Part shown: in pieces, positions 1,245 through 23,620 of the stretch
Position numbering within the stretch: position 1 is the stretch's first letter
Layout: every line of letters begins with the position of its first letter
Origin: Physocladia obscura
Lineage: Eukaryota; Chytridiomycota; Chytridiomycetes; Chytridiales; Chytriomycetaceae
Length of the DNA stretch: 23,620 nt
Direction: 5' to 3'
Assembly (NCBI GenBank): GCA_027596945.1
Contig: JADGJH010000250.1
Coordinates: forward strand, 1 to 23,620
Program-made: the position numbers and the translations under genes
Notes under the pieces: model-generated
What the model saw: only the letters and a program-made list of their open reading frames with translations
Told to the model about the DNA's origin: nothing
Databases searched by the model: none

Positions 1245-2921
1245 TTAAACTTGGATCGCTGATACTGGCCCTTCAGCTGCTGGAAAATCTTCTACAGCTA
1301 TTGCTGTTGTTGTTGTTGTCCCTGGCGCACTTTCATTTGGATTTCCTTCAAGTGCATCGTAATAAACTGATTCTTGTGTTAATGTTTCCGCGTCACTTGC
1401 ATTTGAACTGATCATAATTCCATAATCTTCTTCTTCTTCGTCCACATCACTGCTTTCCCATGCATCCTCGTCATCGTCGCTATAGTCTTCACCTTGTCCC
1501 ACATCCGCATCCGCATTGCTACCACCAACACGATTGCCATTGTTGATCAGATTGCTCCTGTACCCGGCATAATCAAATTTCCTATCCTCTTTGCCGCTAC
1601 TGTTAATATCGTTGCTGCTGCTGTTAATGCCGTTTATAATGTACACGTTATCGAGAAACTTGACGCTTTTTTTATCTTTGTTGCTGTTGTTATTATTGTT
1701 GTAGTTCCCGCCCGTGGATAAAGAATTCCTAACCACCGACGATAACGACGGTAGTGGTGGCAGTGACGAAGAAGACGAAGACGATAATGAAGACAGACCA
1801 GGCAAAGACACCGTAACGGAACTTGTCTTTGTCATTCGCAACAAGACGGTATTGAATCGGGGAAGTGATAGCGACTGTGATACTAAAATACTTTTGGGAC
1901 TACTGCCGCCTTGTTCGTGTTGTTGTTCTTGTTGTGGTGAGGACGCCACCGTCTTAGAAAAATCCACTGCAAAACGAACACCGACGCCATCAGAAGATTC
2001 CTCTCGCGTATGAAGAAGCGCTGTATCTAAACTGACTCCATCTTCAATCACCAACGAAGGTATCACGTCTCGTTGAACATCCACGTATCCACTATCTTTT
2101 CTTTCCGTCTCAATTAATTCGTAACCGTCATGCTTTATTGTCACATTTCGAGCTTGAATCGGTGAAATTGCTATTGTTGCGTTCGCGCTGCTGCTACTAC
2201 TAGCTCCATTATTGTTATTGTTGTAATGTCCAGTATTTTTCAGAATGCTCTTCACGTTTTGTGGCTGGACATACGGAAGCGTTGTCGCAACAGAATCTCT
2301 GCGTGAGTTCTTGATTGCAGCATTACGCAGCCGCCAGTTTGAAAACGCAAGCCGTGTTTCTTCAACGGCAGACCGGGCTTTTGCTTCGGCAGTGTTGTTG
2401 GCAATTCGTGTTTCCAAATCAACTGAATACGCGAGCAACTGTTTGATTTTAGCGTCGGCAATCAGTTTAAGGTGTTTGAGATTTGTCTCTTCCGATGTTT
2501 CATCCTGTTGGTGTTGCCGTTGTTGCTGTTGCTGTTGGAGACTGCGGGATACTTTATCGCGGTGATTCTGGCATGAAAGTAGCTGCCGTTTGACAACGGC
2601 AAGTTCCAGGCGATCGAGCATGCGGCCCAAGACAGCACTTGGCCGCATTCCACGCGTGCGATCCAGCTGCCGACGATGCGTTTGATTCCGGTTCCGGCTG
2701 ATTTTCCGTCGCTGGATATTCTGAGCTTGCTCTTGTTCTTGTTGAAACTCATAGTCATCGTCGTCATAATCATCTCCGTCGGTTTGTGTTTGCGTCTCTT
2801 CATTTGGTGGATGCCGCGATTGAGGATCCAAATCTGATTGCAGCGGACCAAGCATGAATTGTTGAAAATGATTCAATTTGTTTTTTTTTTTTTTTTGTTT
2901 TGTGTCTTCAGTGCTCCTCAT
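1245..2921 (-). CDS. low-complexity protein with SILK and RVxF PP1-docking motifs
   Basis: This is a single uninterrupted frame of 558 residues starting MRSTEDTKQK; a second Met at residue 23 could also serve. It has no recognisable enzymatic domain. Visible elements are an acidic and Gln-rich N-terminus (residues 40-70), a basic/helical region (71-205) with a Gln run at 129-138, Asn and Ser runs, and a very acidic stretch at 476-500. Two short linear motifs stand out: PYVQPQNVKSILKN at 216-229, containing SILK, and KSVKFLDNV at 418-426, containing an RVxF-type KSVKF. SILK and RVxF are established docking motifs for protein phosphatase 1. A second, degenerate SIL (KSILV) is at 343-347. The gene at 16765-17730 shares the same motif block. 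A PP1-regulatory role is inference. The start lies only 75 bp from the Ubc7 stop on the same strand. Confidence 0.75.
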   Translation of the reverse strand: MRSTEDTKQKKKKNKLNHFQQFMLGPLQSDLDPQSRHPPNEETQTQTDGDDYDDDDYEFQQEQEQAQNIQRRKISRNRNQTHRRQLDRTRGMRPSAVLGRMLDRLELAVVKRQLLSCQNHRDKVSRSLQQQQQQRQHQQDETSEETNLKHLKLIADAKIKQLLAYSVDLETRIANNTAEAKARSAVEETRLAFSNWRLRNAAIKNSRRDSVATTLPYVQPQNVKSILKNTGHYNNNNNGASSSSSANATIAISPIQARNVTIKHDGYELIETERKDSGYVDVQRDVIPSLVIEDGVSLDTALLHTREESSDGVGVRFAVDFSKTVASSPQQEQQHEQGGSSPKSILVSQSLSLPRFNTVLLRMTKTSSVTVSLPGLSSLSSSSSSSLPPLPSLSSVVRNSLSTGGNYNNNNNSNKDKKSVKFLDNVYIINGINSSSNDINSSGKEDRKFDYAGYRSNLINNGNRVGGSNADADVGQGEDYSDDDEDAWESSDVDEEEEDYGIMISSNASDAETLTQESVYYDALEGNPNESAPGTTTTTAIAVEDFPAAEGPVSAIQV

Positions 2922-2996
2922 GACCCACTGAAACCCAGAAACACTCTTGATGCACAGAAAAACAACCCAATTCTCATTCCCTCGTTTCCAACAATT

Positions 2997-4080
2997 TTAA
3001 TCTTCCAAACTTCGTCTAACGCAGCGCTGAACGCGCTTCTTAAAGGCCTTTTCGTCTTCTCTCCTGTTAAACAGAACATTACTTACAAAAATAACGATAT
3101 TACAAAAGTGAACAACAAACCATTCTTTTGCTGCCTCGATATTTGCAGGACTTTCATCATTGGGGCTGCTCAACATACTGATGACACTCAAAACAATAGT
3201 CTCGACAGTGTGAATCGGCAACCAACGTTCACTAGCACTTTCGTATCCATATTTATCCTCTCCCGGCGCATGCAGGATTGAAATGCAAACATCACCATTT
3301 GCATACACGTTTGGATGCCATATATCCGAGACGAACGTCATTTTTGGTGGTAGAAGTGGATATTCTTTTGGGAATATGAGCTTGGCCTTGAAGAAACCGC
3401 CTTCACTGTAGGTTGAGTTGATTATTTTTCATTTAGCCAAATTGTTTCAAGGTTGGTTTGTTTCAGTTAAATTTTGCGGGAACTTGAAGTTTGGATAAAA
3501 GTAGAGAAAAAGGAAGCGATGGAATAAAAATACAGGGGGTAGGTAGTAAAAAATCGGAACTTCAAAAAGAAATTAAATTAATTGCGACAGAGAGTGGCAC
3601 AATTGTTGTGTCAGATTGGCAAAGTGAACAGTGGCGATAAAAAAGCGAATGATTGAAGCATAACCGCCAGAGTCCAACAAAAACGTAGAAGCGATTCAGA
3701 AAATTGAAACAGGACAGAGATCGGATTTGATTGAGGGGGAATTGCGCAGTGCGGCGGAAGGGAACTCACTAGAGGGTTCCTTCTGGCCCCATAATCATGA
3801 GTTCCCATTCATATATGTTGCTGTCGTCGGCAAGACCTGCTGAAAAGCCTGGAGGGAAGTGTGTTTTTTTAGCGGAGCCACTGACATAGCAAAACAAACC
3901 TTGGACTGGATTGCGTGACAGTTCTGTGCGTTTTGTTCGTACATTGCGGGCAGAAGATACGCAAATACGGGAGAAGGCGTTGTTAGTTGTTGAGGTTATA
4001 CTCTTGCGGTGAGTTTCGGTTAAGTTACCCTTCAACTGACGGCGCAGAAGTAGAGAACTTTGACTCTGTGAATCGCTCAT
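2997..4080 (-). CDS. UBC7: ubiquitin-conjugating enzyme E2, UBE2G1/Ubc7 type
   Basis: Five exons join in frame: 4080-4029, 3923-3900, 3848-3770, 3405-3121 and 3063-2997, giving 168 residues (the human UBE2G1 family is about 170). All introns are GT-AG. The product carries the UBC fold: N-terminal helix [22 protein letters not shown], the HPN motif at 82-84, catalytic Cys92 in GDVCISILH, and the 13-residue acidic loop [13 protein letters not shown] at 98-110 that marks the Ubc7/UBE2G and CDC34 classes. [10 protein letters not shown] and the C-terminal helix follow. The family forms K48-linked chains in ER-associated degradation (ERAD), recruited to the membrane by Cue1 or gp78. A Cue1-like gene is at 14427-15327. 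The third intron is unusually long (364 nt). The start is 106 bp from a divergent neighbour. Confidence 0.95.
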
Positions 4081-4186
4081 TTTTATTCCTTGTTTTTGTG
4101 CTGAAAAATCTTTGCGTTTCCGTTTCTTTGGCAGATTGTTGTCTTCTGGTCTGTCTTCTGTTCCGCCGGCAAATTTAAGCCATTCG
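4081..4186. promoter_or_regulatory. bidirectional promoter between UBC7 and a small membrane-protein gene
   Basis: The two start codons (4080 minus, 4187 plus) are separated by 106 bp, so both 5' UTRs and promoters must lie here. T-rich runs are visible on the plus strand. No specific factor site is identified. Confidence 0.45.
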
Positions 4187-4471
4187 ATGTTTTACGGATC
4201 ACGGTCGAACAATAATCGGCTATTTGTGGGAGCCTTGGTGCGTAATCTTGGCCCATTCCACTGCCATTTACAACTTGCAAAAAAACCAACCAACCAAACC
4301 AAACCAAAAAAGGTAGCCACAATCTGCATTTCGATTGGTACCGTTGCACAGTCAACGTTTTTTCCCTCCGATATTCAGCGTCAAAATCGCGACACGGTGC
4401 GCAATCAAATGGCTAATCATATGACACGCATCCAAAACGAAGAGCTCGACAATAATAGCAAAAAAAACTGA
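4187..4471 (+). CDS. small single-pass membrane protein, 69 residues
   Basis: Two exons, 4187-4237 and 4313-4471, are joined across a 75-nt intron (donor GTGCGT, acceptor AAAAAAG). The intron is a multiple of three and contains no stop, so the frame also reads through. Splicing creates a continuous hydrophobic helix, RLFVGALVATICISIGTVAQ, which the unspliced reading breaks with a hydrophilic Asn/Lys/Pro stretch; this is why I prefer the spliced form. After the helix comes a charged tail, DIQRQNRDTVRNQMANHM, likely helical. The short basic N-terminus plus one membrane span resembles small mitochondrial inner-membrane or assembly factors, but I do not recognise the family. ATG 4187 is the only in-frame Met upstream of the helix. 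Confidence 0.55.
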   Translation: MFYGSRSNNNRLFVGALVRNLGPFHCHLQLAKKPTNQTKPKKVATICISIGTVAQSTFFPSDIQRQNRDTVRNQMANHMTRIQNEELDNNSKKN

Positions 4472-4601
4472 CTAGTCAAATTCTTGTTGTTTATTTCTCA
4501 CACTGGCACAGTATATTGGTTTAGTTCGTTCTTAAGTATCTGCACAAATAAAATAAATAAATACTTCATATATTTTTGATATTGATATTTTTCATTGAAA
4601 G

Positions 4602-5363
4602 ATGGCAGGCTTGATTTACCGATACAGCGATACAGCATGCACGCAGCCGATCAGCATCGAATACTCGATATCAGCAGCAGGCTGCAGTGGCGTAACACTT
4701 GCAAGCGGCGCCTGTATCCCAACGTTTGCCGGCCAAGCGGCGATAACAAAATGCCAGTCCGAGGAAGACGACTTTGCCGCGGCGGCAACTAACTTCCTGA
4801 CAGGCGGCGCAGTAGACACATTATTTGCCGAGACGGCAGTATACTCGAGTGACAACTGCAGCGGTGGTGGTGGCACCGGCAGTGTTGTCGAGTACGTTGC
4901 GAGTCTATTGGATGCTTGTATTGCTGTGTCCAATACCACTGCGTACCGCTTCAGCGCCGTGAATTACTCGGCGTTCATCGGTAGTGATATTGGTTGTGTG
5001 GGATCAGCGGCTGTGGTTGTTGCTAATTCGGCTGCGTGTTCAGCAATCTCGGGCGGTGGTTCTTTCCAGCTCATCAACTACGGTTTTGATTCTTCTTCTT
5101 TTTCCTCGACGACGGCAGTTGCCGCCACTTCCGCTGCGCCTGGTTCTATTACTTCTACCTTCGTGCCTGTTTTTATTGTTATTGGCATCGTCCTTATTGG
5201 CCTTGCTTTTGTGACTGTCTGCCTTTTGTTCCGTTTGTCCAAACAGCCTTCTGTTTCCCACCCTTTCTTTTACCACCGCGAAAACAAGGATTTTCCAGAC
5301 GAAGTTGAATATGACACCGAAGAATTACACAAAATGTCTTCCAAAAAAACATCAGAAAATTGA
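4602..5363 (+). CDS. cysteine-rich ectodomain protein with one C-terminal transmembrane segment
   Basis: This is an intronless frame of 253 residues. Residues 1-185 are rich in Ser, Ala and Gly, with eight cysteines (13, 28, 38, 51, 85, 105, 132, 145) and three N-glycosylation sequons (N84, N111, N121). That is the look of a secreted or lumenal domain. A hydrophobic segment at about 188-210 (VPVFIVIGIVLIGLAFVTVC) is followed by a charged cytoplasmic-type tail ending KKTSEN. No N-terminal signal peptide is present. The 130 bp back to the preceding gene contains no ATG that could supply a signal-peptide exon. It may therefore insert N-out using its only membrane span, or an upstream exon is missed. 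Family unknown; a surface protein is the likeliest reading. An AATAAA is at 5447-5452. Confidence 0.7.
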   Translation: MAGLIYRYSDTACTQPISIEYSISAAGCSGVTLASGACIPTFAGQAAITKCQSEEDDFAAAATNFLTGGAVDTLFAETAVYSSDNCSGGGGTGSVVEYVASLLDACIAVSNTTAYRFSAVNYSAFIGSDIGCVGSAAVVVANSAACSAISGGGSFQLINYGFDSSSFSSTTAVAATSAAPGSITSTFVPVFIVIGIVLIGLAFVTVCLLFRLSKQPSVSHPFFYHRENKDFPDEVEYDTEELHKMSSKKTSEN

Positions 5364-5446
5364 AGTTGAAAACCTCTGTCGGATAAATAGAAATTCTTGA
5401 AAAAAAAACAAAATCAAAAAAACAGATGTATAGATGAATTTCGTGA

Positions 5447-5452
5447 AATAAA
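5447..5452 (+). terminator. candidate polyadenylation signal AATAAA
   Basis: The AATAAA hexamer lies 84 bp past the stop of the plus-strand membrane-protein gene, within the 123-bp gap between convergent genes. Its position suits 3' end formation. Confidence 0.4.
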
Positions 5453-5486
5453 CTCTTGTCAATTTGATGCAAAACTGTAATAATTT

Positions 5487-8400
5487 TTACTTTGCGCTCT
5501 TTTGCTTTCCCTTTTTGCTAGACTCAGCAACAACCTCCACCTCAGCTGCTTCTTCAGCTGTATTACCATCAATCGCTTTTGACTTTTTTGACTTTGATTT
5601 TGACTTAAGCTTTTCACCGCCTCCTTCGTTATCGACGTCATTTACGACAGCGGCATCGTTATCATCTCCTTGGTTGTCAGCAGAGGTGTGATGTTTACTT
5701 TTGGATTTGGACTTTTTCGACGCTTCTTCGGCCTCTTCATTATCGTCATCTCCAATTTCCACGTCTTTTAATTTTTTTGATTTTTTTGACTTTTTTTCGG
5801 TGGCGGCAGCAAGGACAGAAGCGTTATTCTCGTCATTGTTATTTTCATCCAACAAATCTTTTTTTGAAGATTTTTTCGACTTTTTTGCTGCGCTTGCACT
5901 TTCTTCATCGTCTTTGTTTTCTTGATTATTTTTAGTACTGTCATCGTCAACATTGTCTGACTTTGAAGATTTTGACTTTTTCGACTTTGATTTTTTCGCG
6001 GGTACCTCTTCAAAGTCTTCACCTTCTTCAATAAAAACCTCCTCCTCATCTATTTCTTTCGACTTTGATTTTTTCGACTTTAATTTTTTTCGACCTGATT
6101 CAGTGTGATCTTGGTCGTTGCTGGCATCAAATTCATCAACATCTTTCGACTTCGACTTCTTTGATTTTTTCTGCTTTTCGACAGCTTCTCCATCATCTTC
6201 GCCATCCCCGGCAGCAGCAGCAGCGGCAGCAGCAGCAGCAATAGCTTCGTCATCTTCGTCATCGCCTTCTTTCGACTTTGATTTTTTCGACTTTGACTTC
6301 TTGCGAGCAGTTTCATTGTCGTCAGCATTGTGCTGCTCTCCATCAAACCCAGGATCGATTTCTTTCGACTTTTTAGATTTTGATTTTTTTGGCGATTCGT
6401 CATCATCGTTATCAACTTCTTTCGACTTTGACTTTTTCAAAGATTTCGATTTTTTGCGTTCACTGCTTTCATCGTTTTCATCCTCGTTGCCATTTTCTGT
6501 CGCTACTACCTCAGCATGGTCCTTTGATTTTGATTTCGACTTTTTCGATTTCGACTTTTTAGTATGCGTTTCCTCATCTTCTTCGTCTGCTTCGTGGTTA
6601 ACGTTTTCATCGCCGTCATCATAATCATCATCATGCTTTGACTTTTTCGACGACTTTTTCGATTTTTTTTTTTTTTTCGGTGCGTCGTCCTCCTCCTCCG
6701 CTTCTTCCACCTCTCTATCAACTTTCACCGCCTCAACAGTTTCTTCCACAACTACTAGTTCTTCGTGTTCCTCTTTTTTCAGATCCGCTGGCAGGTCCTG
6801 TTCAACAATAGTAACTGCTTGAACAACTGCAGGCCCAGCTCCTCCGCCAACTTTTTTTCCCTTTTTTTTCCCTCCAGCCTTTATTGGAGCCGTCGTGGCC
6901 TGGTCACCTACACCTGCGCCATCAGGGGCCGTTGCCGCTGCTTGAGATTTTGCCTTTCGCGCTTCAGCTGCAGCAAGGGAAGCAGCAACAGCAGCGTCTT
7001 CTCGGTCTTTCGCGTATTTTGCCTTCAGCGCCGCTTTATAATCATGGATATCACCGTCAAACACTTGCATTTTTCCGTCCTGGACAATCCAAATCTCTTT
7101 TGCGACTTGATCGATTAATCTGAAATCGTGTGTTACGAAAATAACTCCACCGTCGTATTCGTTAATGGCTTCAGCTAGTGCGTCGATCGTTTCCTACATG
7201 CACACAGTTTTTTTTGGTTAAGAAAATTTTTTTTATAGGGGTGTTGCTTGGCTGCTTACCAGATCAAGCGCATTTGTTGGTTCATCCATCAAAAACATGT
7301 GCGGCGTGTGCAATCCAAGATAACAAAACAAAACACGTCTTCGTTGTCCGTCACTCAACTGCTTCATTGGAACAACTTGCGATTTTCCTGTCAGTCCAAA
7401 TTTTCCAACTTCACGCCGCATATCCTGTGGCTTGATGTGCTTGAAGTGTAAACAGAGCCATTCAACTGCGGACCGCTCCATGTCAAGTTGATCACCCATG
7501 TGTTGATTAAACTGACCAATACGAAGATTGTGGTGACGTGAGATTGAGCCACCTGTTGGTTCCAGTTTTCCGAGCATGAGCTTCAATATTGTACTTTTTC
7601 CGGCACCGTTTGGCCTGTTGGAATAAAATGAATAATGAGGTGAGACAAAAGTAGAAAGAAAAGAAAAACTAACCCAACTAAAGCAATTCTGGAGTCAAGA
7701 TCGAGACCGAAATTCAGTCCTTTGAACATTGGCGGCTTATCAGCATCATAGCCGAAATCAACGTCATTGAACTTTAAAACAGGCGGCGGCAGTCCACGTC
7801 CACATTCACCAAACCGAATAGAGAGATCCCGGTCGATAATCAGCTCTTCCTGAAGATCCTTGTTTTTGGCCATATTTTTTTCTTTTTCCTTGTCCATATT
7901 TTTGAGCTTCTGTTTGGCCTGAGTTTGCGCCGCAGTGCCGGTTTTCGTCAAGTTTTCAGCAACCTTGGCCATTTTTTTTTCTTCCTTGATTGCCTGCTTA
8001 GTGAGAAGCGCAGTCTTTTCTGCGCGCACGCGAACGAACGTGCTGTAATCGCCCTAGGAGCCAATATTTAATTGTTTGATCGATATAAGCAGGCGGAAAA
8101 GCTTGGTAATTCACCTTGTAGTAATCGAGTTTCTGGTGGTTCAGATGTACGATATCGGTGCAGACTTCGTTAAGGGTATCCTGTGAGTGGCAAGTGATGA
8201 CAAGTGTGTGGCCAGCAAGGTTGTGGACCAGATACTCTTCGAGCCAGACGACGGCCTCGAGGTCTAGAAATACGTTAATACGACAATCGGTCATAGCAGA
8301 CTAGAGCGTACCGAGATGGTTGGTGGGCTCGTCGAGCAGCATCAGAGAGGGTTTGACAAACAGGATGCGTGCCAGGGCGATGCGCATGCGCCAGCCGCCG

Positions 8401-9087
8401 GACAGGTCCTTTGTCTTCGTGGCGATGCGCGTGGAGTCGAAGCCCAGGCCGCGGAGGATCTCCTCGGCGGCGCGCGCCTCGCCCGACACTTCGAGGTCGG
8501 CGAGGCGCGCGTGCACGGCGTCGAGGCGCGTGGCGGCGGCGTCGGCGTCGGGGCCAGCCGTGGCGTCAAGCAGCGCCTCCATCTCGTCCAGCAGTGCGCC
8601 GCGCTCCTGCTCTGTGATGTCCAGCACGGCCTCCAGCGCCGTCAGCTCCGTCGCCACATACTCGCGGTCCAGCAAATAGTAGTCCAGCGCCGCCGGCGTC
8701 GGTACGAGTCCACACGCTAACAATACGATACCATTAGCAACAGCCATAATAAATACAACAGCACCAACCGATCGCATGCAGGATCGTCGATTTGCCACTG
8801 CCGTTCGGCGCCACCAATCCATACCGCCGCCCCGTCAGAAACGTCAGGTCCGAGTCCTTGACCAGTAGCTTACCGTACGCCTGCAGCGTGAATCGCTCCA
8901 CCTGGACGTCACGACTGTTTGGTGGCGAGAGCAGCGTGCCCGTTGCTGCAATTGCTTCCGCTATCCCCGCCACCAATTTACCCTGCGCATCCACGAGCAC
9001 TGCTCCGGACGCGTACGAGCTCTTGACCTTCAGATCCCGATTCGCTGTTACTGCAGTCTCTTTCTTCTCTGTGTCACTGTCGCTCAT
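5487..9087 (-). CDS. ARB1: ABCF ATPase, ARB1/ABCF2 type, with a long Lys/Ser repeat tail
   Basis: Six exons (9087-8769, 8716-8312, 8263-8115, 8053-7674, 7614-7260, 7193-5487) join in frame to 1104 residues through five GT-AG introns of 48-66 nt. There are two ABC ATPase cassettes and no membrane spans. Cassette 1: Walker A APNGSGKST at 93-101, signature LSGGW at 211-215, Walker B LMLLDE at 231-236, switch His267 (CHSQD). A Lys-rich linker follows. Cassette 2: Walker A PNGAGKST at 419-426, signature LSDGQ at 504-508, Walker B FLMDE at 525-529, switch His558 (VTHD). The SHSQD-like switch and VFDGDIHDYK ending match Arb1/ABCF2, a soluble factor in ribosome biogenesis and export. The ABC part ends near residue 602, where the family normally stops. 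About 500 further residues consist of KKSKSKKSKS blocks separated by acidic spacers. Exon 2 is far more GC-rich than the rest. Confidence 0.93.
5490..6700 (-). repeat. coding repeat array: KKSKSKKSKS blocks in the ARB1 tail
   Basis: At least twelve copies of a basic block built on K-K-S-K-S-K-K-S-K-S, often followed by K-E-[VI]-D, alternate with acidic Asp/Glu/Asn spacers of roughly 20-35 residues. On the plus strand the DNA shows repeated GACTTTGATTTTTTCGACTT-like strings. Copies differ in sequence and spacing, so this is an old, diverged protein repeat and not a fresh tandem array. Confidence 0.85.
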
Positions 9088-9892
9088 TTATTTGAAGGAC
9101 AACAAAAAAAAAAAAAAAAAATTGAACTTGAGTCCTTTTTTTGTATTTTTTGTTCCAATTTCACCTGTAGACAGCTTTCAAATATTAATGGCAATGAGAA
9201 AATACCACAAATATAGTTTCCAATTTTATCATAATTAAAAACTCCGATACACTGACAGCAAAGCATGTAAACATGTGTGCTCAAAGGTAGCATGCAATCA
9301 TTGAAGTTGAATATAAGGAACTACCACATAAACAAAGAATGGCAGTCCTCCAATCAGGTCAATATTACAAAGTAGATCTGTTGCAAGGCACAGATAAGCA
9401 TTTCAAAGAAAAACTTTGTGTTGGATATCACACATTTTGTTGACGGATACACAACTCTATGGTGAGAGGTGTGTATTATAAAACAAGTAGTGCAAAACAA
9501 ATTTTTCTTCATTAATTTAAGATTTATTTGTTTCTTCTCAAATAAAAGAAATAAACTGTTTATTAACAATCATGGCAAAATGGATAAAATTGTAATTCTT
9601 GATTCCATTCATATGGGGCAGAATCAAAATAAACAATAAAAATGCAAAATCATTACAAATCTGTTTGTCTTAGTTTATTTCAATAAAGTTAAATTATAAA
9701 AATAGCTTTATTTATGGGTAGTTGATAAAAGCAAACAATCTTTATGAAAGATTAAACTAACTGTTTCAACTGATCTGTTGTTCTTACTGTGATACAATAC
9801 TGCAGAGATGCCAACAGAATCAATAGAGAACCATTGAGAAAAAACTGGTATGTTCACTAGTTAATAGTAAGAGACCCACTCCACTTACCATA

Positions 9893-10013
9893 ATGTTCAA
9901 ATACCTGGAAACACACTCTCTCTCCTGGATTATCTTACACAAGAGCATGGCTTGCATAGTAGACTAGGGAAGAGAGTGAGAGATACTCTGCAGTGTACAA
10001 GGGTTTTGAACAT
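9893..10013. repeat. imperfect inverted repeat around a CT/GA-rich core
   Basis: ATGTTCAAA at 9893-9901 is matched by its inverse TTTGAACAT at 10005-10013. Inside lie CACTCTCTCTCC (about 9914-9925) and the loosely complementary GAGAGTGAGAGA (about 9972-9983). It could be a small hairpin or a miniature element; the arms are short and imperfect. Confidence 0.3.
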
Positions 10014-11798
10014 AAGCATAAATAACTGTATTAGAAATCAATGAGAAAAATTAAGGAAAATGTAGAAAAGAAAGTTGTAGGATACTATGGAAGCATCCAC
10101 AATCTCTTGTACCAACAGATTTGAATGAGTTGATAGCCACAGCACATGCATTCATTGTTTGCATAGTCAACTTGAGTTTATTGCTAAACATATTAAGGTA
10201 ACTAAACAGAACAGTGAGTTGTCTAAAATCAACACAAAATAAGTGAAAGAACCAACTGCCGTTCACTATATCATCAATCATTTTAAGCTGTAAGCAATGA
10301 CAGAAAAACCACATTTATTTGGTTTTCTCAGCACATTTTTCATTGAAAAAAAGAGAAAAACTCAAAGATGTGTTGCAATCTACATTACAATTGTGTGCAT
10401 TCAGGATTTTTCGGTCAAAATTATTTTTCTTTAAGATTTTTGTTATTCAAAATCCCCAACTTTCAAATATAAACAATAAATTTTTTCAACTGTTACTGAC
10501 CATATAAAGCCTCCCATTTTTTCTATACAATAATATTCCTGCTTAAGTTAATGCCAGAGCAGTGCACACTTGATTGCCACCATTGATGTTGTTTTTGAAT
10601 TCATTTTTGTTAATAAAGATTCAAGTTTATCTTCCATACAGCTTGAATCTATTCTACCTTCAACAAGATGCTTTTATACTGCTGTATTTTAAATTATTTC
10701 AAATTCAGAGGCATCTCAGGAAACAAAATGGAAGAAAGAAACTACACAAAATTTAGTAAATTGCTGATGTAGTGTTGAATCCTGTGGAGGTGGATTCACT
10801 TGAACTGTTGGAATGGGCACAATAAAGTATAATTTAGCTTTAGAATCTTATTATTTATTTCCAAGAACAGGAAAACATTTTAAATGCTCAATTCTGTGCC
10901 TCAAAATAAAACTTTTGTGCCTCATTTCTAATGCCTCAATATTGATTAAAAACCAATTTCTTAGAAAAATAAATTGTTCAAATGTGAAAGACAAAGTTAG
11001 AACATTTGATCCCTATTCTTGAATGAAATAAAATTTATATTTTTCTTTCACAGTTATCTAATAAATAATATTTCTATTTCCAATTCTATATTAAATAGTA
11101 TTTAACATCTATTCAGCTTGTATAACATATTTTATTTCTTAAATCTAACATGTAGTAGCTGGGGAACAGACGTAAGGTTGTGGTAAGTTGTAGAAAATAG
11201 TAAAAGGTTCTGCTGGTAGCTGTCGAAGCTTTAGTCAACTAATTCAATACTAAGTATCTCAAAACTAAATGACAAGAGTTTTGATTTGCTGTGTGTAATA
11301 AGGGGCTTTAGAGATAATATAATTTTATTGATTTATTGTGACTGTTTCAGAAAAGAAACCAACGGTTTTTATACATTTTCCAGTGTCTTGGTAACAACCT
11401 GGCTTGATTAGCCACCTTGTATCTTAGCTAAGTGGCAAATGCTCTATTTGTCACTTTTGGTGATACCAGCAGTGTCTTTAATCAAGATCCTGGTAGGTAA
11501 CACCAGTTTTTCCATTTTTCCATGCAAATTTTCAAAGTTAGAACCCTTAGAAAAACTTGCCTATCAATCCATCACTTGTAAAACATACAACATGTTGTCA
11601 CAAGTACATGCAATTAATACAGAGCAATTTCTAGGCTTCCAGCACCTCCTAGCATCAATTGTGAATGAGTAATAAAAATAGTTCTATCTTTACAGTCCAT
11701 TGTGTCACATTGTACTGAATACCACTACAGCAGTGTGAGCTGTTGTACCAATAGTGTCTTTAGCCAGAAGTACAGCTTTATCATCTCTTTTATCATGA

Positions 11799-11856
11799 CA
11801 ATGTTACTGTTGTTATCTACACAAGCTGAGGTCTCATGTATGCATAACAAGTCCTG
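11799..11856 (+). repeat. diverged dispersed repeat, copy A
   Basis: This stretch shares AATGTTAC, CTACACAAGCTG and ATGTATG-x2-TAACA, in the same order and spacing, with 13100-13158. Roughly two thirds of positions match by eye. It is probably a remnant of one repeat family. Confidence 0.4.
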
Positions 11857-13099
11857 AGAGAGTTATTATGCATATATGTTACATTACTCAATGATTAAGA
11901 AAATGCTGTTTAATAAGGCAGCTGAAAAACATACAGAAATATTGTGTATGATGTTTTGTGTGTACTTTATTATCTTCACACATTATTTCAGTGTGGTGAT
12001 CACTGTAAATGGCCTCTTTCAGTTATTAGGATATCTCAGTTATGATTAGAACTTGAATTCCAAATCTTTAATGAAAGCTTTGCATTTCAATTCTTATTTA
12101 TTGTACACAGAGAATTAATGGACTAATTATATTTGGCAGTGAATTCCAGATTGTTGCCACTGGTCATGGAATTTTAACAAAGAGTTTGAGATAGGAGTAT
12201 GGGATTTAGTTGAAGTTCAAGTTTAATAGTTAATGAATACTTTGTTTTTATTTGATAAGACCAATCATACAGAAAAGAAAAGAGTTTTTGAGGTGGAAAG
12301 GAAAAGAAAGAAAAAAAATAAAAGATGCTTAGAAAGAAAAATGGTTGGAAAGTGGTTGGAAATCACTTGAATTTTTTAGGTTCTTGAAAGTGATAGAAGG
12401 CTTGAGAAATTTTAGAAAATTCTTTGAGAAAATTAGATTAACATTCTAATTTACATCACAAAAAAGGCTATAAAGAGGGCTCTTGCAATTCCAATATTCC
12501 TGCTACCAACAAGGCACATCATCAGTATACTCATAATTTGTGACTGCTTTTGGACCATTTCAAATAAAATTTCTGAAAATTTTTTTTCGTTTTCAGCAGT
12601 GGCTACATGTAACAAGTCTGGCTTTTTTTTTGGATGTTGTGATCATTTAAATGTATTGTTTTGTTGTGCAATTTATAGTTGTTTTAAAATAAGCAAAGAA
12701 TCAGAATGGCTTGGTTTGGGGGTAGTTGCAATTCTTGATGTACAGTAATTGACAAAAAGAACTTTGGCTACTTGCCAAAGGTTTCATGCATAGTATATAT
12801 ATTGATAGCTGTGGTGAATTTGCAGCACCAGTAGTCAATAATTCATAGCTACTGAAAACTTCCTCAACATCTTCATTATCTGTGTTGTTATTTGCTGTTA
12901 TTTTGCCACAGCCATGTTGGCTTAGAAAACACACTTCAGCGCCACTTTGTTGATAACCATCTTCAGTTGTTGGCTATGTGCATTAATAAAGAATGTTTGT
13001 TTATTAGAGCTTGAGAAATAGTGTACAGTAGTTTTAGAACATGTGCCCAACCATTCCAACTTACTTCAAAGTATGATTTAGAGGCATTAGATTCATAAG

Positions 13100-13158
13100 A
13101 ATGTTACCTCTATCAACTACACAAGCTGTGCACCTATGTATGGCTAACAGATCAGGCT
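13100..13158 (+). repeat. diverged dispersed repeat, copy B
   Basis: This is the partner of 11799-11856 in the same orientation. It ends about 45 bp before the transposase-like frame, so the repeat may belong to the same decayed transposon family. Confidence 0.4.
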
Positions 13159-13202
13159 TACTTGAAGCTGGGGCTCAATGTTAACTATTTTTGTGTTTTT
13201 AG

Positions 13203-13400
13203 TTGCCAAAAATGAATCTGTACTTTGGAAAAAAAAGTGTCTTAGTTCTTGACTATGCAAAAATTCACAAACACCCTTGTATTCAAGCAGCATACAATGT
13301 AGCTGGAATTCTTCTTGCATTTTTTTCTCCTTATCCACCTGATTTGAACCCAGTCTGTCATAAGCTATTTTTTAATCATGCATTTTTAATCACAGATTGA
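13203..13400 (+). pseudogene. Tc1/mariner (DDE_3) transposase remnant
   Basis: A plus-strand frame of 65 residues reads PKMNLYFGKKSVLVLDYAKI followed by H and, further on, PYPPDLNPVCHKLF. This aligns with the C-terminal part of the Tc1/mariner (DDE_3) catalytic core, where the consensus is LPxMNP...SVLVLDNARIH...PPYSPDLNPIE. The second catalytic Asp is kept (LDY, with Asn changed to Tyr). The final acidic residue after DLNP is lost: VCH replaces the usual IE. Stops flank both sides, and the helix-turn-helix N-terminus and first catalytic Asp are not seen. It is a dead fragment, and I could not delimit terminal inverted repeats. Confidence 0.8.
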
Positions 13401-14426
13401 GCAAAGTTTTTGTTAAATCAAAAACAATTTACATAAGCATAAAAGAAGATTGTAAGATCTTATTCAACAGGATGTAATCTTTATAGCTTGTATGACAATT
13501 GGTCAAAATTCTACAAGGACTTGTTTTACTCATGTAAACTACATTTGATATAAATAAAAAGAATTATGTGCTTATATTTCAAATACTCTTCTCATTAATA
13601 TAATCCCAAACTGTCAAAACTTGACCAGTTTGTGCAGAAGGCAAATTTTTTAATCAAGCCAGCAATAGTTTGCCAGTAAGTGGAATAAAATTAAAATGAT
13701 AAGATCTGAAAAATCTAACTGTTTTTTCAATTTAGTTTAACTGGGTGATTTTTCTTAGCCAACTCCATCTGAATCAGTGGCATGGGATTAACATATGGTT
13801 GAAGACTTGTGGTAGCAGCAACTGCAATAGATACAAAAGAAGTTTTTTTTCATTTCAAATTTTGAATCAGCAAATAATGTTAACACTTCGGGTTTTTGGC
13901 ATTTTATTTTTTCTTTATAGGATTTTTGAAAAATACAATCAACAAATCAAGTGAACAATCCACAATGTTTTCAGGTGAATGATAAATTGGTTCTTGTTGA
14001 TGATACATAAAATAAATAAACATGTTTGAATACAAGCAGTTATTGTTCAAGAATAAGAAGTGCCAAGACTTACAGTGCTGAACACTTTCTCTCAAGATGA
14101 AACCACTTTATCAATTCATTCACGCCATAAAATGTGTATTTCCTCGAAGATTTTGGCAAGGCGGGATACTTTTTTGATCAACTTCGGATTTTTCAATGTT
14201 TGGAACAATTTCAGCGGAAACTTCAAACAAAAAGTTAGTGTATCCAAGCATAGCAGTTATACTGGTAAATGTATGAAGGCCTTCGAATTTGTGAAAATAG
14301 AGCGTATTCTTTCGCTGTTAATCATACATCAACAAAGTAAAGAGTGAAGAAACAACTTAGCTTGTCGATTTCTCGGGTTGAAAAAAGAGATGTCTTTTGG
14401 GACAAAAATTGGAAAAGAAAAATAGC
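13401..14426. other. AT-rich intergenic region upstream of the CUE gene
   Basis: There are no credible coding regions. The longest frame (14060-14347) has no family resemblance and atypical composition. The last few hundred bases become less AT-rich and should contain the promoter of the CUE-domain gene that starts at 14427. Confidence 0.5.
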
Positions 14427-15327
14427 ATGGTGCAACAAACAACGGCCGATCCACTGACGGTGGTAGTCTCTTTGGTGATTCTGTTTCTTGTATTACGTTA
14501 TCTTCTAGGTGAGCAAGTTATCAATACGCCAGCGTGAGAAATGCATAAAGAACGAGCCCCTTAATACAACTCAATTCAGCACAACACTAAAGTCCCGCTC
14601 CACACAAAACAGCATCGCCGAACAGCAACACAAACAACAGCAGCAACATCAACAGTAATAATAATACAGTCGGTGCATCAGTAGTGGCAAACACGCGTCG
14701 ACAGCAACCAGCCCGGCGCACCCACGTTGTCGATCCGGCAAAGGTGAAACAAACCAACCAATCATCACAATCAACAATCCATCAAATCATGAAACCAACG
14801 ATCAAATCATGAAACCATCGAGTCTACAAAACTATTAATACAATAAATAATCCACACTCGTAAAGGTTGACGCTGTCCTCGCAATGTTTCCGCACTATCC
14901 ACGCACCACCGTTGAACGAGATCTAGCCCGCACCGGTAGCGCCGAACTTACGATCGAAAATATTTTGTCGGGCGCTCTGGTGAGTTTCCCTCGTTTAGTG
15001 TGCAAACTTCTCAAATCACAAAAGTTCAAAGCTTATTTCTGCAACAATCTTTTTTTTCAAATCATTATTTCGTAGCCTTTGCCTCCACCTCCAGTGCAAC
15101 AGTCGACATCGTCGTCATCAACAGCATCCTCATCTTTAATTACTCCTCTATCGTATCTCAAAGGTGCTACAGCCTCATCGTCAGAGCCGCTTGTGGAGCC
15201 TCCGAAAGTATGGGAGCAAACTGCTGAAGGTCGTGAAGCCAATTTGCGCGCTAGAAAAGAGCATATGGTTCGTCTAGCCCGTGAACGGGCTCTCAAAGCT
15301 AAATTGAAGTCAACTGTTGCCGAATGA
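14427..15327 (+). CDS. CUE1: Cue1-like ER membrane protein with CUE domain
   Basis: Four exons (14427-14508, 14613-14743, 14866-14979, 15076-15327) give 192 residues. The N-terminus has one membrane anchor, LTVVVSLVILFLVLRYLL (residues 10-27). An Asn/Ser linker leads to a CUE domain at about 72-109 with the MFP motif (78-80), ERDLARTGS and IENILSG; CUE domains bind ubiquitin. After a Pro/Ser-rich linker, the C-terminal helix KVWEQTAEGREANLRARKEH resembles the region of fungal Cue1 that binds and activates Ubc7. Anchor, CUE and C-terminal helix occur in the order found in yeast Cue1, which tethers Ubc7 at the ER for ERAD. Exon 2 begins at CATCGCC; earlier AG acceptors bring in stops. Ubc7 itself is encoded at 2997-4080. 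Confidence 0.85.
14781..14820 (+). repeat. 20-bp tandem duplication inside a CUE-gene intron
   Basis: Two adjacent copies of ATCAAATCATGAAACCA-N-CG differ at one base. They lie within the second intron and do not touch the splice sites. Confidence 0.8.
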
Positions 15328-15333
15328 AAATAC

Positions 15334-15339
15334 AATAAA
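15334..15339 (+). terminator. candidate polyadenylation signal AATAAA
   Basis: AATAAA followed by ATAAAG lies just past the CUE-gene stop, within the 54-bp gap to the convergent ISY1 gene. Confidence 0.4.
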
Positions 15340-15381
15340 AATAAAGTATTACATTTCTTTTTTTTAAATAATTTTCAAACA

Positions 15382-16630
15382 TCATGCCGATCCAAGGAAT
15401 TGGTCCAAAAGTTCTTGCTTCTTTCGACGCACAATCCATGCCTCAACTTCTGTGAGTGTTGGAATACTTTCATCCACAAATTTGTATACATTCTTTGATG
15501 TTTCAAACACTACGCTTGGATCTTCTCCTTCTTCATCCATTGCACCCCCAAGTCCCTCCGAAAGATCATAAGCCAATGCTTTTGCATACACTATTCGTTT
15601 AGACAAAAGTTTTAATAGAAACATCAAAGCAAAAAAAAAAAAATATATATATATATATGAAAAAAAATACTTTTAAGCCTCAGTCCAGATTCATATTCAA
15701 CCAATTTCCCATCATCTTCATCTCTATAACCATAGTAATCCGCATCGACAGCCTTATACATTTCACCGCGTGTTTTCGGAGTTTCTTCGAGTGCTGTTCA
15801 TTTTATATTTGATTGAGACTAAAGGAAACAAAAAATAAAAAAATAGCCTCATACTTTGCTGCTGCTCGAATAGCTCTTTGACACCTGGCAATTCTTTTGC
15901 GCGTCCAAAATACCTTTTAATTGACACCATCAGCTTATGTTTCTTTTATTTTCTTCAAGTCACCTATATCCCCTGCTTCCTGGTACCTCTTTGCCTTCAG
16001 CATCAAGCACGCGAGACGATCCTCTCTGATAAATAAATAAGGAAGAACTTCAAAATAATAAGATAAAAACGATTCCGTCATACCCGATAATCAGGTCCAC
16101 CGAGCTCCTTGATTCTGTACTCCCAATGACGTTTATCGCGAAATAGTTTGTTGATTTTGTCGTTAAGGTCACGGACTTGGTACTCAGTGAGCCCGGCTGC
16201 AGAATTTAAAAAAAACAAAACAAGCTGGTTTGTAAGTACAGAAAATAGTGCTCATCGCTTGAATTCTTCAAATGTGAAAGCGCAAAAAGAGGATGAAACT
16301 CACGGTCTTGGATTTTGCTGACTTTGCGTGAAATCTCTCTGATAATATCGCCACGCCACTTGTCGGCTTCTCGCACAGTTGTCACGCCAGCAGACGAGCC
16401 AGGCCGTCGCTCATTCTTGATGCCAATGCCGAGTTCGGCCATCTGCGCCTCGCGAAACCGATACAGCATCGACTGCGCCTTTTCTTCATTTCGCGCCTGT
16501 GTGATAATAATGGGTCAAAAATGACATTCGTACATTTTGGGTTTGTTGTGTGCATTCGCGGTTTTTTTGTGGATTATTCTGGTTGTTTTGTTTCGATTTG
16601 TTTCGAAGCTGAGGTCTGTTTCCTTACCAT
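15382..16630 (-). CDS. ISY1: pre-mRNA splicing factor ISY1
   Basis: Seven exons join in frame to 253 residues: 16630-16628, 16496-16304, 16196-16084, 16025-15964, 15913-15855, 15793-15671 and 15590-15382. The first coding exon is only the ATG; splicing gives MARNEEKAQSMLYRFREAQM, the conserved ISY1 start. Then come KWRGDIIREISRKVSKIQD, YQVRDLNDKINKLFRDKRHW, EYRIKELGGPDY, VLDAEGKEVPGSRGYRYFGR, AKELPGVKELFE, YYGYRDEDDG and the C-terminal VRRKKQELLDQFLGSA, all in family order. ISY1 is a component of the spliceosomal Prp19-associated complex (NTC), influencing first-step fidelity at the catalytic centre. All six introns are GT-AG. The last one (15591-15670) holds a poly(T)/AT tract. It converges with the CUE gene. 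Confidence 0.93.
15631..15658. repeat. poly(A)/(AT)n microsatellite in an ISY1 intron
   Basis: A run of 13 A is followed by about eight AT units, within the last ISY1 intron. In the sense orientation it reads (AT)n then poly(T), about 40 nt before the acceptor. Confidence 0.85.
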
Positions 16631-16764
16631 CTTTGAAAATTTGATGAGACTGAAAAAAAACAAAAGATGTTCTTTGCACAATCTTACACAATCATCAACA
16701 CTACCACTGCCACAGCCATGTTTTCTTCCCAATCTAAACATTTTGCCGCAACAGCTTCAACACG

Positions 16765-17730
16765 TTATCTCTTTTCCTCTTTCTTTCCGCTATTCTGCTT
16801 TTTTTCGCCCACGTATATTTGACCAACTCCATTTCTGGTATCGATCTCATTACAGTTTCCGGCATGCTCTTGTTGCTTGCCATGGTATCTAGAGTCATGA
16901 TATGATCCAAACTTGATCACAACGACTGTGTCTGAAAACGAAACACTTTTCAACACCATATCTGGCGATGACCGTGGCGAAGTTTTGTTACTGTCGTTGC
17001 AACCGTTCCGGAGCCGCGATTTTGAAGGCCTGTTTTTTAGAATACTTGGCACTCCGGAAGGCTGGGTGTATGGCTTTGAGTTTATGATGTGGTATTTGTA
17101 TGCAAGAGCTGTTGCTGATAGGCGGACGTTTTCAAGAATCAAAGCCGCAGAGCGACAGTGGGGAATTGTTTCATCTTGGTATTTTTGCTGACGTTTTAGT
17201 TTTAGCTTCTGTTGCAACTGCTGTTGTTGCTTCTCTTCCAGCTGATTTGAAACTACTTGTTGTTGGTGGTATCGGGTTTGTTGGTATACTGTTCGTGTCG
17301 CATAAATATTTGGCAGGTGGGCTTGTTCGCTTGGAGAGTTGGATTGAGGCTGTGGCAGTGGTTGGAGAGCAATTTTCTCGTTGGCAGTGGCGTTGTCAAG
17401 TTTTGCAGAAGGTTCAATTTGGCGGCTGTTTTTGGAGATTGGTGAGATAATAACGTTATCGCAGTTGCCATTTTCAAGATCAACGGTATAAACGCCCAAT
17501 TCTGCACTGCTTTGAATTAAAACAGAAAATTGTTTCTCTGGCTGGCTTTGCTGGCTGCGTTTGCGTTCTGCTTGTATAGTTTGCCGGTGTGCGTCCAAGT
17601 TCAGAATGCTGGGAAATGAATGCAGCCATGCGCGCATCGGATGCTTTTCTTTCAAAGCGTTTACTTGTAAGGTTTGATTCTCGCGTTGCATGAATAAGAA
17701 CGGGTTTCCGCGCGTTGAGACACTGGACAT
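16765..17730 (-). CDS. low-complexity protein with SILK and RVxF PP1-docking motifs (second copy)
   Basis: An intronless frame of 321 residues starts at ATG 17730 (MSSVSTRGNP); upstream the frame is open but has no ATG. Composition is Gln-, Asn-, Ser- and Lys-rich, with a coiled, Gln-rich stretch at about 166-184. The helix-like RSAALILENVRLSATALAYK (about 193-212) is followed by PYTQPSGVPSILKN (220-233) and then KSVSFSDTVVVIKF (261-274). SILK (229-232) and KSVSF (261-265) fit the PP1-docking motifs SILK and RVxF in their usual order, 28 residues apart. The PY-x-QP-x2-V-x-SILKN block is shared with the protein at 1245-2921. No enzymatic domain is visible. Function as a PP1-targeting protein is inference. 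It lies 134 bp downstream, in its own direction of transcription, from ISY1's start. Confidence 0.7.
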   Translation of the reverse strand: MSSVSTRGNPFLFMQRENQTLQVNALKEKHPMRAWLHSFPSILNLDAHRQTIQAERKRSQQSQPEKQFSVLIQSSAELGVYTVDLENGNCDNVIISPISKNSRQIEPSAKLDNATANEKIALQPLPQPQSNSPSEQAHLPNIYATRTVYQQTRYHQQQVVSNQLEEKQQQQLQQKLKLKRQQKYQDETIPHCRSAALILENVRLSATALAYKYHIINSKPYTQPSGVPSILKNRPSKSRLRNGCNDSNKTSPRSSPDMVLKSVSFSDTVVVIKFGSYHDSRYHGKQQEHAGNCNEIDTRNGVGQIYVGEKKQNSGKKEEKR

Positions 17731-17840
17731 TTTTGACGAGCAATTTTGGAACAACGATTTTGGAGACTTTTGGAAACAAGGGTGTTGCAATTCTCCGCCA
17801 GCAAGCCAATGACGCTTCTTTTCCTCTTTTTTCCTTCTTT

Positions 17841-18389
17841 TTATTGGCCAACCTTTAACGCAACAAGGAAACGCGAAACCATATTATAACCAGCAACAGT
17901 GGCTGTGATTTCCACCAGTTCTTGATTGGAAAATACTGGTCTCAGCCGCTCAAATAATTCATCAGTGACATTCACGTCACGGGTAACACTGTCCGTATAC
18001 TCAATAACAAGAGCCACTTTTTCACTCTGCCAAATGCGGCTGAAAAACAAATAAGCCGAAGGATCCGTTTGAAGAAAAGAACGCAGACTTTGAATTTGAT
18101 TGTCGGTTGCGCCACCCTCGTCCCTCAGAATCGGAGTATGTTGGGACCATTCGTACTCGGCAGTATTGAGAACGGCAATTCGACACATGATAATTTCGCG
18201 GAGGATGGCAGGGAGGGTGGCTCCAGATCTGATTGCGCCAAACATTTGATTCCATCCTTGCGCAATTGCGGGAGCGTGGAGAAGCACCCGATCGAGTTCG
18301 AGAAGTCCTGACGAACCTCTGCGCTCGCGAACTTGATCCGCAACTTGGCCGGCAACATTCTCAGGGACGTAAGGAATGCGGGGAACCAT
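17841..18389 (-). CDS. carboxymuconolactone decarboxylase / AhpD-like family protein
   Basis: A single-exon frame of 182 residues starts at ATG 18389 (MVPRIPYVPEN). The all-helical CMD/AhpD-like pattern is visible: LLHAPAIAQGWNQMFGAI, then LREIIMCRIAVLNTAEYEW followed by SQH, then SYxFV-like helices, ending GYNMVSRFLVAL, the usual C-terminus of the family. The E-x6-x-YEW-x2-H arrangement matches fungal members that lack the redox CxxC pair of true AhpD, so peroxidase-type disulfide chemistry is unlikely; a lyase or isomerase-like function is possible. The substrate is unknown. Length is normal for the family, so it looks complete. It precedes the next minus-strand gene closely (69 bp). Confidence 0.8.
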   Translation of the reverse strand: MVPRIPYVPENVAGQVADQVRERRGSSGLLELDRVLLHAPAIAQGWNQMFGAIRSGATLPAILREIIMCRIAVLNTAEYEWSQHTPILRDEGGATDNQIQSLRSFLQTDPSAYLFFSRIWQSEKVALVIEYTDSVTRDVNVTDELFERLRPVFSNQELVEITATVAGYNMVSRFLVALKVGQ

Positions 18390-18458
18390 TATGATATTCA
18401 ATACTGTATTTTGCAATTTTTGAACACACGAAATTCACATGATTGTATAGAAGAGGAA

Positions 18459-20455: not shown

Positions 20456-21157
20456 CTACACACAACATTGAAATTCGCTAACAGGAGGCTTGAGCAGTGG
20501 TGTGTCTCCGGTGCCATCATCGCTGTAATAAATCTCAATGTCGACATCTTCAAAAAGTAGCGATCCGATAGCAAACCCAAGACATGCAGCCAAAATCAGG
20601 CCAATATTGAAGGTCATGACAATTAACATGACTATATATCGTACCAAAACGCTGAGAAATGTCAAGCCAGTCTTAGCTATGAGATGCCATAAACGGGTGG
20701 GGTCATTTTTGGAAATTCTGAGTTTGCTGAATATAGTGCTGAGCTTGGAGGTTTTGTTTTTGTTGTTGTCGTTTTTATTGTTGTCATTGTTGTCGCTGTT
20801 GCTGCCGTTAGAAGTTGGAGGCAAGCTTTTGGAGTGATTTTGGGTCACAAAAATTATTCTGTTTTGAATAAGACTGCGTTTCGTCTTGTCGGCAAATACG
20901 GCAAACACGCTCAGTACCAGTGTGAAGAGCAGTGCACCTAAGTACTGCCCGCCATTTGCTGGCACAAACTCGGCAAACAGAACACTGTCGCAGATTGCCG
21001 AATGCAAATACATACTCCCACATAGCGTTGAGTTGCTGGTCGATGACAAGCTGCTGCCCATATTCATATCCATGAGGCTACTCACGCCTTTCGGTATCGG
21101 TGCTGCTGCAACTGCCACCACTGTTACTGCTGCTGTCAGAAGGTGTCCAAAACTCAT
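20456..21157 (-). CDS. Ctr-family copper transporter
   Basis: A single-exon frame of 233 residues. MSFGHLLTAAVTVVAVAAAP looks like a signal peptide or signal anchor, followed by a short Met-containing stretch (MDMNMGSS, 30-36). Three membrane spans follow: QYLGALLFTLVLSVFAVF (71-88), SVLVRYIVMLIVMTFNIGLI (169-188) and AACLGFAIGSLLF (190-202). TM2 carries the MxxxM copper-selectivity motif (M177, M181) and TM3 the GxxxG packing motif (G194, G198), the hallmarks of Ctr transporters, which import Cu(I) as trimers. The TM1-TM2 loop is Asn/Lys-rich. The C-terminus ends QCCV; terminal Cys pairs in Ctr proteins bind copper. The N-terminal Met content is low for a plasma-membrane importer, so a vacuolar/endomembrane role is possible. 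Confidence 0.85.
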   Translation of the reverse strand: MSFGHLLTAAVTVVAVAAAPIPKGVSSLMDMNMGSSLSSTSNSTLCGSMYLHSAICDSVLFAEFVPANGGQYLGALLFTLVLSVFAVFADKTKRSLIQNRIIFVTQNHSKSLPPTSNGSNSDNNDNNKNDNNKNKTSKLSTIFSKLRISKNDPTRLWHLIAKTGLTFLSVLVRYIVMLIVMTFNIGLILAACLGFAIGSLLFEDVDIEIYYSDDGTGDTPLLKPPVSEFQCCV

Positions 21158-22452: not shown

Positions 22453-23620
22453 ATGGGAGAGTCGAGACAGGAACTGCTTGCTTGGGTCAACGATCTTTCT
22501 CAACTGGGTATCACGAAAGTCGAGCAATGCGGCACGGGGTGAGCAAAGCCGAGCATCCCATCTACTATGACTTAGCATGCAATACCTCCTGTTATTACTT
22601 TGTGAATGTTTCATGTAACGCTGCGCTAACCGTTCCTCCCACTGCCGCGATACCTCTGAACTGTCTTCAGCATTGTACACTGTGTCATTATGGATTCAAT
22701 TTTCCGTGATGTAAGTCCTTTTGTTTTCTTGTTTGGCTTGTCCTATTTCCCGTTATAGTCACCTTGACACCAGCAATCGATGGCATTGCTAAACCACAAC
22801 TCGAACTACATCGCTTAACTGCCACAAATGCATTATGCTAGGTGCCGCTTAAAAAAGTCAAGTTTAACGCCAAACACGAATATGAATACGTCGCAAACTT
22901 CAAAGTACTTCAAGCAATATTTGACAAGCATAGAATTGATAACGAAATCCCTGTTGAACGTTTGACGAAGTGTAAGATGCAAGACAATCTCGAATTCTTA
23001 CAGTTTATGAAAAGGTTGGTTTTTCGTTTACTTTTTGGTTGTTTGACATCATGCAGAATCAAACAAAAAAAACCAACCAGGTACTGGGATCAATTCTATC
23101 CTGGTGGCGAATATGATGCAATCGCAAGGCGTGCTGCATCTCCCGCTCACGGCGCCAGCACATCAAACTTGCGAACTGCACCAAAGGGTTCCGCCAATAG
23201 TATTGCCACAGGAATGAAAAAAACACTGAGCGCTACGACTGTAGCCACTACATCTTCTCCTGCCGCTAAGCGAGTCAATGTTGTTTCTTCTGCGTCGAGG
23301 ATTTCTGTTGCAGCGCCATCTTCGACTCTCACCTCCAAACGAGCCCAAGATTTGGAGTTGGAGTATCAACGTAATCTTGCTGAAATGACAGAACAAACAA
23401 TGGAACTCAAAGTTCAAGTTGACCAAGTTGAAAAGGAGCGCGACTTCTATTTCGACAAGTTGAGGGAAATCGAAGTTTTTGTACAGGAACATCTCGATGG
23501 CGGTGGTTTGGGTTCCGATGCAAGTGCTACTGATGTTCTGGACCATATTCAGGCAATTTTGTACAAGACAGAGGATGGGTTTGAAATTCCAGATGCTGTT
23601 GCGGGTGCTGAAGATGAGGA
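22453..23620 (+). CDS. BIM1: EB1/Bim1-family microtubule plus-end binding protein (3' end beyond window)
   Basis: Exons 22453-22538, 22671-22710, 22842-23014 and 23081 onward give 279 residues to the window edge. Residues 1-106 are a calponin-homology domain: SRQELLAWVNDLSQLGITKV, VIMDSIFRDVPLKKVKF, EYEYVANFKVLQAIFDKH, QDNLEFLQFMKRYWDQFY. This domain reads the tubulin lattice at growing microtubule ends. A Ser/Ala/Lys-rich linker follows, then the dimerising coiled coil (LELEYQRNLAEMTEQTMELK) and the EB-homology motif ERDFYFDKLREIE with ILYKTEDGFEIPD, which recruits SxIP partners. Only the last few residues, where an EEY/F-type end is expected, are outside the window; the visible end is GAEDE. 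Short first exons and introns of 66-132 nt suit the neighbourhood. Confidence 0.93.

Follow-up and report, generated by a model that had tools for sequence, protein, structure and literature searches.

The window analysed here, a 23,620-nucleotide stretch of Physocladia obscura DNA, is an entire contig (C248, 23.6 kb) of an assembly of 21.76 Mb in 1222 contigs. Two open reading frames on its reverse strand, here termed P1 and P2, each encode a PYxQPxxVxSILKN block followed by a KSVxFxD motif. These elements resemble the SILK and RVxF motifs that dock proteins to protein phosphatase 1 (PP1), and the motif positions given for both proteins in the initial annotation are correct letter for letter (Table 1).

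Table 1. Coordinates of P1, P2, their predicted features and other genes in the window (aa, amino acids; pLDDT, predicted local distance difference test; phi, hydrophobic residue).
Feature	Window coordinates	Strand	Basis and remarks
P1	1245..2921	(-)	one open frame, 558 aa, ATG at 2921
P1 predicted long helix, residues 145-208	2298..2489	(-)	single-sequence AlphaFold2, whole-model pLDDT 47
P1 block PYVQPQNVKSILKN, residues 216-229; SILK docking motif 225-228	2235..2276	(-)	sequence, shuffle tests
P1 KSVKFLDNV, residues 418-426; RVxF is KKSVKF	1644..1670	(-)	motif match; loose and strict consensus fit
P1 I-I pair, +5 after RVxF, candidate phi-phi	1635..1640	(-)	such a pair in 27% of shuffled tails
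P2	16765..17730	(-)	one open frame, 321 aa, ATG at 17730; open upstream to TTG at 17790
P2 predicted long helix, residues 140-216	17083..17313	(-)	single-sequence AlphaFold2, whole-model pLDDT 42
P2 block PYTQPSGVPSILKN, residues 220-233; SILK docking motif 229-232	17032..17073	(-)	sequence, shuffle tests
P2 KSVSFSDTV, residues 261-269; RVxF is KSVSF	16924..16950	(-)	motif match; loose consensus only; begins 32 residues beyond the first residue of SILK
P2 V271-I272 (+5 after RVxF), 8 residues, R281; candidate RVxF-phi-phi-R spacing	16888..16920	(-)	fitted by 2.0% of shuffled tails
Carboxymuconolactone decarboxylase family protein	17841-18416	(-)	Pfam
Ctr copper transporter	20456-21157	(-)	Pfam
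EB1-type microtubule protein	22842-23618	(+)	Pfam

An alternative P1 start at residue 23 gives 536 amino acids, equal to the length of database entry P0001. Near the P1 start, a run of 16 A lies in codons 9-14 (window 2860-2921), and length errors are common in such runs. Codon usage departs from a composition null with z 3.7 for P1 and z 3.2 for P2. Because it does not distinguish sense from antisense frames, the coding status of both proteins is based mainly on frame length.

Ten of the 14 block positions are identical between P1 and P2, as initially counted. The score of the 14-residue comparison was matched by none of 3000 shuffles, nor was that of the block with the following 30 residues (0/3000), and the score of the 40-residue KSVxF region was matched by 10 of 3000. 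When the best 14-mer shared by the whole proteins was considered, at least ten identities were reached in 0 of 1000 whole-protein shuffles and in 2 of 1000 local (20-residue) shuffles. The score of the whole-protein local alignment was matched by 1/2000 and 7/2000 shuffles, and pairwise BLASTP returned an expect value (E) of 5e-4. The sharing of the block by P1 and P2 is real and statistically sound. Since, of the 16 motif residues identical in P1 and P2, 10 are encoded by different codons, the likeness lies at the protein level and does not reflect a recent DNA repeat; these residues were chosen for identity, hence the ratio carries no further inference. Both conserved serines are encoded by AGY codons, in P1 as in P2.

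The uniqueness of the combination was determined by counting exact encoded sites across the 21.76-Mb genome, with SILKN sites counted with leucine codons. There are 118 SILKN sites, 81 PYxQP sites (111 for the reversed control pattern) and 50 KSVxFxD sites (44 for the reversed control). PYxQP occurs at the block's offset from SILKN only at the P1 and P2 loci. Because the block was defined from P1 and P2 themselves, the fair statistic is a second site given one, and by chance 0.0002 further PYxQP-SILKN sites are expected. The same two loci are also the only ones with KSVxFxD within 3 kb of SILKN on the same strand, 585 and 102 bases downstream, respectively. Among these exact-motif sites, only P1 and P2 unite the three elements. 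The two loci lie 14.8 kb apart on the one 23.6-kb contig, suggesting an old local duplication.

No third member was found by motif coordinates among the 116 other SILKN sites. PYxQP before SILKN was absent in the 41 of these whose surroundings were inspected (32 plus 9, the latter with ~150 bases each side), the remaining 75 being judged by coordinates alone; an exact-motif survey would overlook members with a variant dock such as GILK or SILKK. One locus (L024, C26, near 4611) contains a 368-amino-acid frame with KSVKF 178 residues before SILKN, i.e. in the reversed RVxF-SILK order, and this KSVKF falls outside the set of 50 KSVxFxD sites. At another locus (L058, C434, near 15579), SILKN is located in a long, disordered-looking frame (ARRNSTSILKNPSRASQ) that has no RVxF match, making it a SILK-only PP1 candidate.

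We used [GS]IL[RK] as the SILK consensus and, from PMC4794898, both a loose short RVxF consensus, [RK]x(0-1)[VI]{P}[FW], and a strict one, [KR][KR][ACHKMNQRSTV]V[CHKNQRST][FW]. The claim that SILK and RVxF docking motifs are present holds, as both proteins fit the published consensuses: [GS]IL[RK] occurs within each block, and loose RVxF is matched by residues 418-422 of P1 and 261-265 of P2, the sole match in each protein. P1 also matches the strict form. SILK is N-terminal to RVxF in both proteins, the usual order as initially stated and the commoner one in the literature (PMC12109034, PMC9582199), the reversed order being reported for PTG (PMC9582199) and for Rif1 of multicellular organisms (PMC3410773).

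A hydrophobic pair follows RVxF at +5 in each protein (LDNVY-II in P1, SDTVV-VI in P2), and in P2 an Arg is located eight residues beyond it (VI-KFGSYHDS-R). In the RVxF-phi-phi-R arrangement, the hydrophobic pair lies 5-8 residues after RVxF and the Arg 8-9 residues further. Shuffled P2 tails yield the pair in 19% of cases (P1 and the pair with Arg, Table 1), and across the 799 positions of P1 and P2 the pair fits 160 and the pair with Arg 29.

The single-sequence AlphaFold2 models of P1 and P2 are poor and mostly disordered, with a long helix ending just before the block in both. An arrangement of helix, block, disordered linker and RVxF is common to these poor models, and the block is similarly distant from the N-terminus in the two proteins. 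The initial description of all remaining sequence as low-complexity is only partly correct, as it does not apply to the stretch before the block, which the same models predict as helical in both. Q-rich sequence may be readily modelled as helix, and the predicted helices gain no support from sequence likeness, with 1739 of 3000 shuffles reaching their comparison score.

A PP1 catalytic subunit is encoded in the genome, four of five STPPase_N matches lying above the cut-off. A fragment on C1202 has PP1 chains as its best match (E 1e-48), compared with 7e-39 for chain 5jpe, which we take to be fungal PPZ1, and 2e-31 for PP2A. LLELEAP, presumably bearing Glu54 and Glu56 of the SILK pocket, is retained in this fragment as well as in another copy on C199; Asp166 and Glu167 are not among the residues seen. 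Glutamates 54 and 56 are named for the PP1 SILK pocket in PMC9582199. The genome probably also contains a separate gene for inhibitor-2, seemingly interrupted by an intron: at C249:3001-3559 a PF04979 match just above the cut-off (26.3 vs 25 bits) has GILKR within PKKGILKRP, and a second, sub-cut-off match lies 350 bases on. The RVxF exon of this candidate was not found.

Searches for relatives were made against 5.8 billion proteins, in a manner that detects only proteins of similar length sharing exact words. Whole P1 returned only itself among the 7991 best word-sharing candidates scored, P1 residues 147-233 only itself among 88 candidates, and whole P2 nothing at E<=1 among 915 candidates. 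A profile of the two block regions gave 19 pattern matches in GTDB genomes and 32 in IMG/VR, none of which was confirmed, and 0 matches in the PDB. P2 had 0 PDB matches at E<=10; the single PDB match of P1, to Icln (E 1.2, residues 460-495), was not accepted as real. Neither protein had a Pfam match at E<=1 (the filters remove most matches weaker than about 0.1) or an NCBIfam match. Six-frame searches of the organism's own genome with whole P1 recovered the query plus a single match at E 0.77 and missed P2, and those with either block region returned only the query; as the known other copy was missed, these negatives are weak. The absence of relatives is no evidence of novelty, since the collections may contain few relatives of this organism. 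A literature search, with subscription papers outside its reach, found no published account of such a protein pair.

The reading we favour, which we place marginally short of an even chance, takes P1 and P2 for diverged paralogues that would act as non-catalytic PP1-targeting (regulatory) subunits; an ancient local duplication probably gave rise to the pair. The SILK peptide would occupy the acidic SILK pocket of PP1, and the RVxF groove would receive KSVxF; the hydrophobic residues after RVxF, plus Arg281 in P2, would contribute extra contacts. Ahead of the block, the long helical part may localise or dimerise the protein, and PP1 would thereby be recruited to a site or substrate. PYxQPxxV would form an extension ahead of SILK, retained in both proteins, to which we assign no role.

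Several observations weigh against P1 and P2 being such subunits. No orthologue of either was found in the protein collection, GTDB, IMG/VR or the PDB, and the term family is thus limited to two proteins of one genome. P2 falls outside the strict RVxF consensus, with L rather than K/R preceding K, as do the known binders inhibitor-2 (SQKW) and inhibitor-3 (KVEW; motifs from PMC10066265). It is conceivable, if somewhat doubtful, that P1 and P2 are related and that PYxQPxxVxSILKN docks a partner other than PP1, KSVxF being incidental. The loose form of the P2 RVxF is in line with this, as is conservation reaching past SILK into PYxQPxxV, the one unusual element, which is outside the PP1 motif definitions in the literature excerpts consulted. 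However, SILK and RVxF recur in order in both proteins, each of which has the hydrophobic pair at +5, and no further SILKN site in the genome has a same-strand KSVxFxD within 3 kb. If PP1 is instead the partner, PYxQPxxV could add a contact beside the SILK pocket, making P1 and P2 an undescribed, lineage-restricted PP1-targeting family with an extended SILK dock, PYxQPxxVxSILKN; we regard this more specific proposal as unlikely.

Further points concern the sequence outside the motifs. The 60 residues before the block show no P1/P2 likeness beyond shuffles, with 2658 of 3000 reaching the score: the letters of the RSA...E..RL stretch reported before the block are present in both proteins, and their supposed similarity is not significant. 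The same is true of the 40 residues after RVxF (1979/3000), and the entire part before the block is likewise no more alike than shuffles (587/1500). As these flanking comparisons equal shuffles, the likeness is limited to both motifs and their immediate neighbours. Moreover, the SILK-to-RVxF spacing differs, at 193 residues in P1 and 32 in P2. This pattern would be expected had independent proteins each gained PP1 docking motifs by convergence, in which case both may bind PP1 and not constitute one family. Such an origin is improbable, given that the match spans PY.QP..V besides SILKN, that the second exact-offset site far exceeds its chance expectation, and that the loci share one contig and the AGY codons.

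Docking motifs are, in addition, common. According to PMC4794898, roughly 25% of proteins carry a loose RVxF by chance. In a background of 163 six-frame open frames of at least 150 amino acids from the fetched loci, loose RVxF was present in 43, [GS]IL[KR] in 13, SILK with RVxF in 5 and strict RVxF in 1; SILK is over-represented here because most loci were fetched for SILKN-like matches. Loose RVxF also occurs in four of the seven other SILKN-bearing frames of at least 150 amino acids, in two of them after SILKN, and one of the four is the KSVKF of L024. The presence of SILK and RVxF alone is therefore weak evidence. Nor is the KSVxFxD coincidence alone significant at 3-kb reach, because the expected number of SILKN-KSVxFxD coincidences up to 3 kb to either side is 0.81 (probability of at least two, 0.20); the two figures become 0.08 and 0.003 if the reach is set post hoc to 585 bases downstream. 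What stands out is the extended shared block, rather than motif presence. The reading that the motifs reflect mere chance in disordered sequence of biased composition and lack any PP1 function finds support in these frequencies, in the 2 of 1000 local shuffles attaining 10/14 and in the post hoc selection of the pair from all window genes, and yet we give it little credence, as the block is unmatched in 3000 shuffles, is not itself low-complexity and forms a combination unique genome-wide.

Overall, the initial proposal of two members of one PP1-targeting family is upheld as regards the fit of the docking motifs and their genome-unique combination, and is weakened by the P2 RVxF, the non-significant helix likeness and the lack of orthologues.

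Elsewhere in the window, 5487-7070 (-) is occupied by a 527-amino-acid frame that has no Pfam match and is dominated by KSKKSK and acidic repeats, and 9240-14050 is a region of ~5 kb with low G+C (0.30-0.33) that contains no frame of at least 100 amino acids.

PP1 specificity is set by non-catalytic subunits, which are mostly disordered and hard to spot by homology. The shared, longer-than-usual SILK block offers a small and easily mutated test case for an extendable SILK dock, and the pair also probes how such proteins originate when a gene is duplicated and everything except the docking motifs is then lost. Should PP1 binding fail, the pair would serve as a useful warning on motif counting.

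Among known systems, P1 and P2 are most readily compared with the SILK-RVxF PP1 interactors inhibitor-2, KNL1/Spc105 and fungal Rif1 (the latter according to PMC3410773), with which they share [GS]IL[RK] followed by RVxF in predicted disorder. They differ in lacking the recognisable domains of these proteins and in the added conserved PYxQPxxV before SILK. Inhibitor-2 (PPP1R2; PF04979, IPP-2) likewise has GILK/SILK and then RVxF. Its SILK-RVxF spacing is close to the 32 residues of P2. In contrast to inhibitor-2, neither P1 nor P2 matches IPP-2, and the genome probably has a separate inhibitor-2 gene on C249. Unlike KNL1/Spc105, they have no Spc7 kinetochore domain (0 Pfam matches at E<=1), and at only 558 and 321 amino acids, without a Pfam match, they also differ from Rif1, the HEAT-repeat body of which comprises ~1000 residues (PMC3410773). 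The RVxF-phi-phi-Arg regulators PNUTS, spinophilin, PPP1R15B and Phactr1 (PMC7599070) resemble both proteins in the +5 hydrophobic pair and P2 in the Arg, whereas P1 has no such Arg, SILK is not their defining motif and the pattern is degenerate, as the shuffled P2 tails illustrate. Judged by its motifs, the pair is a plausible candidate for addition to the large group of SILK-RVxF PP1 interactors.

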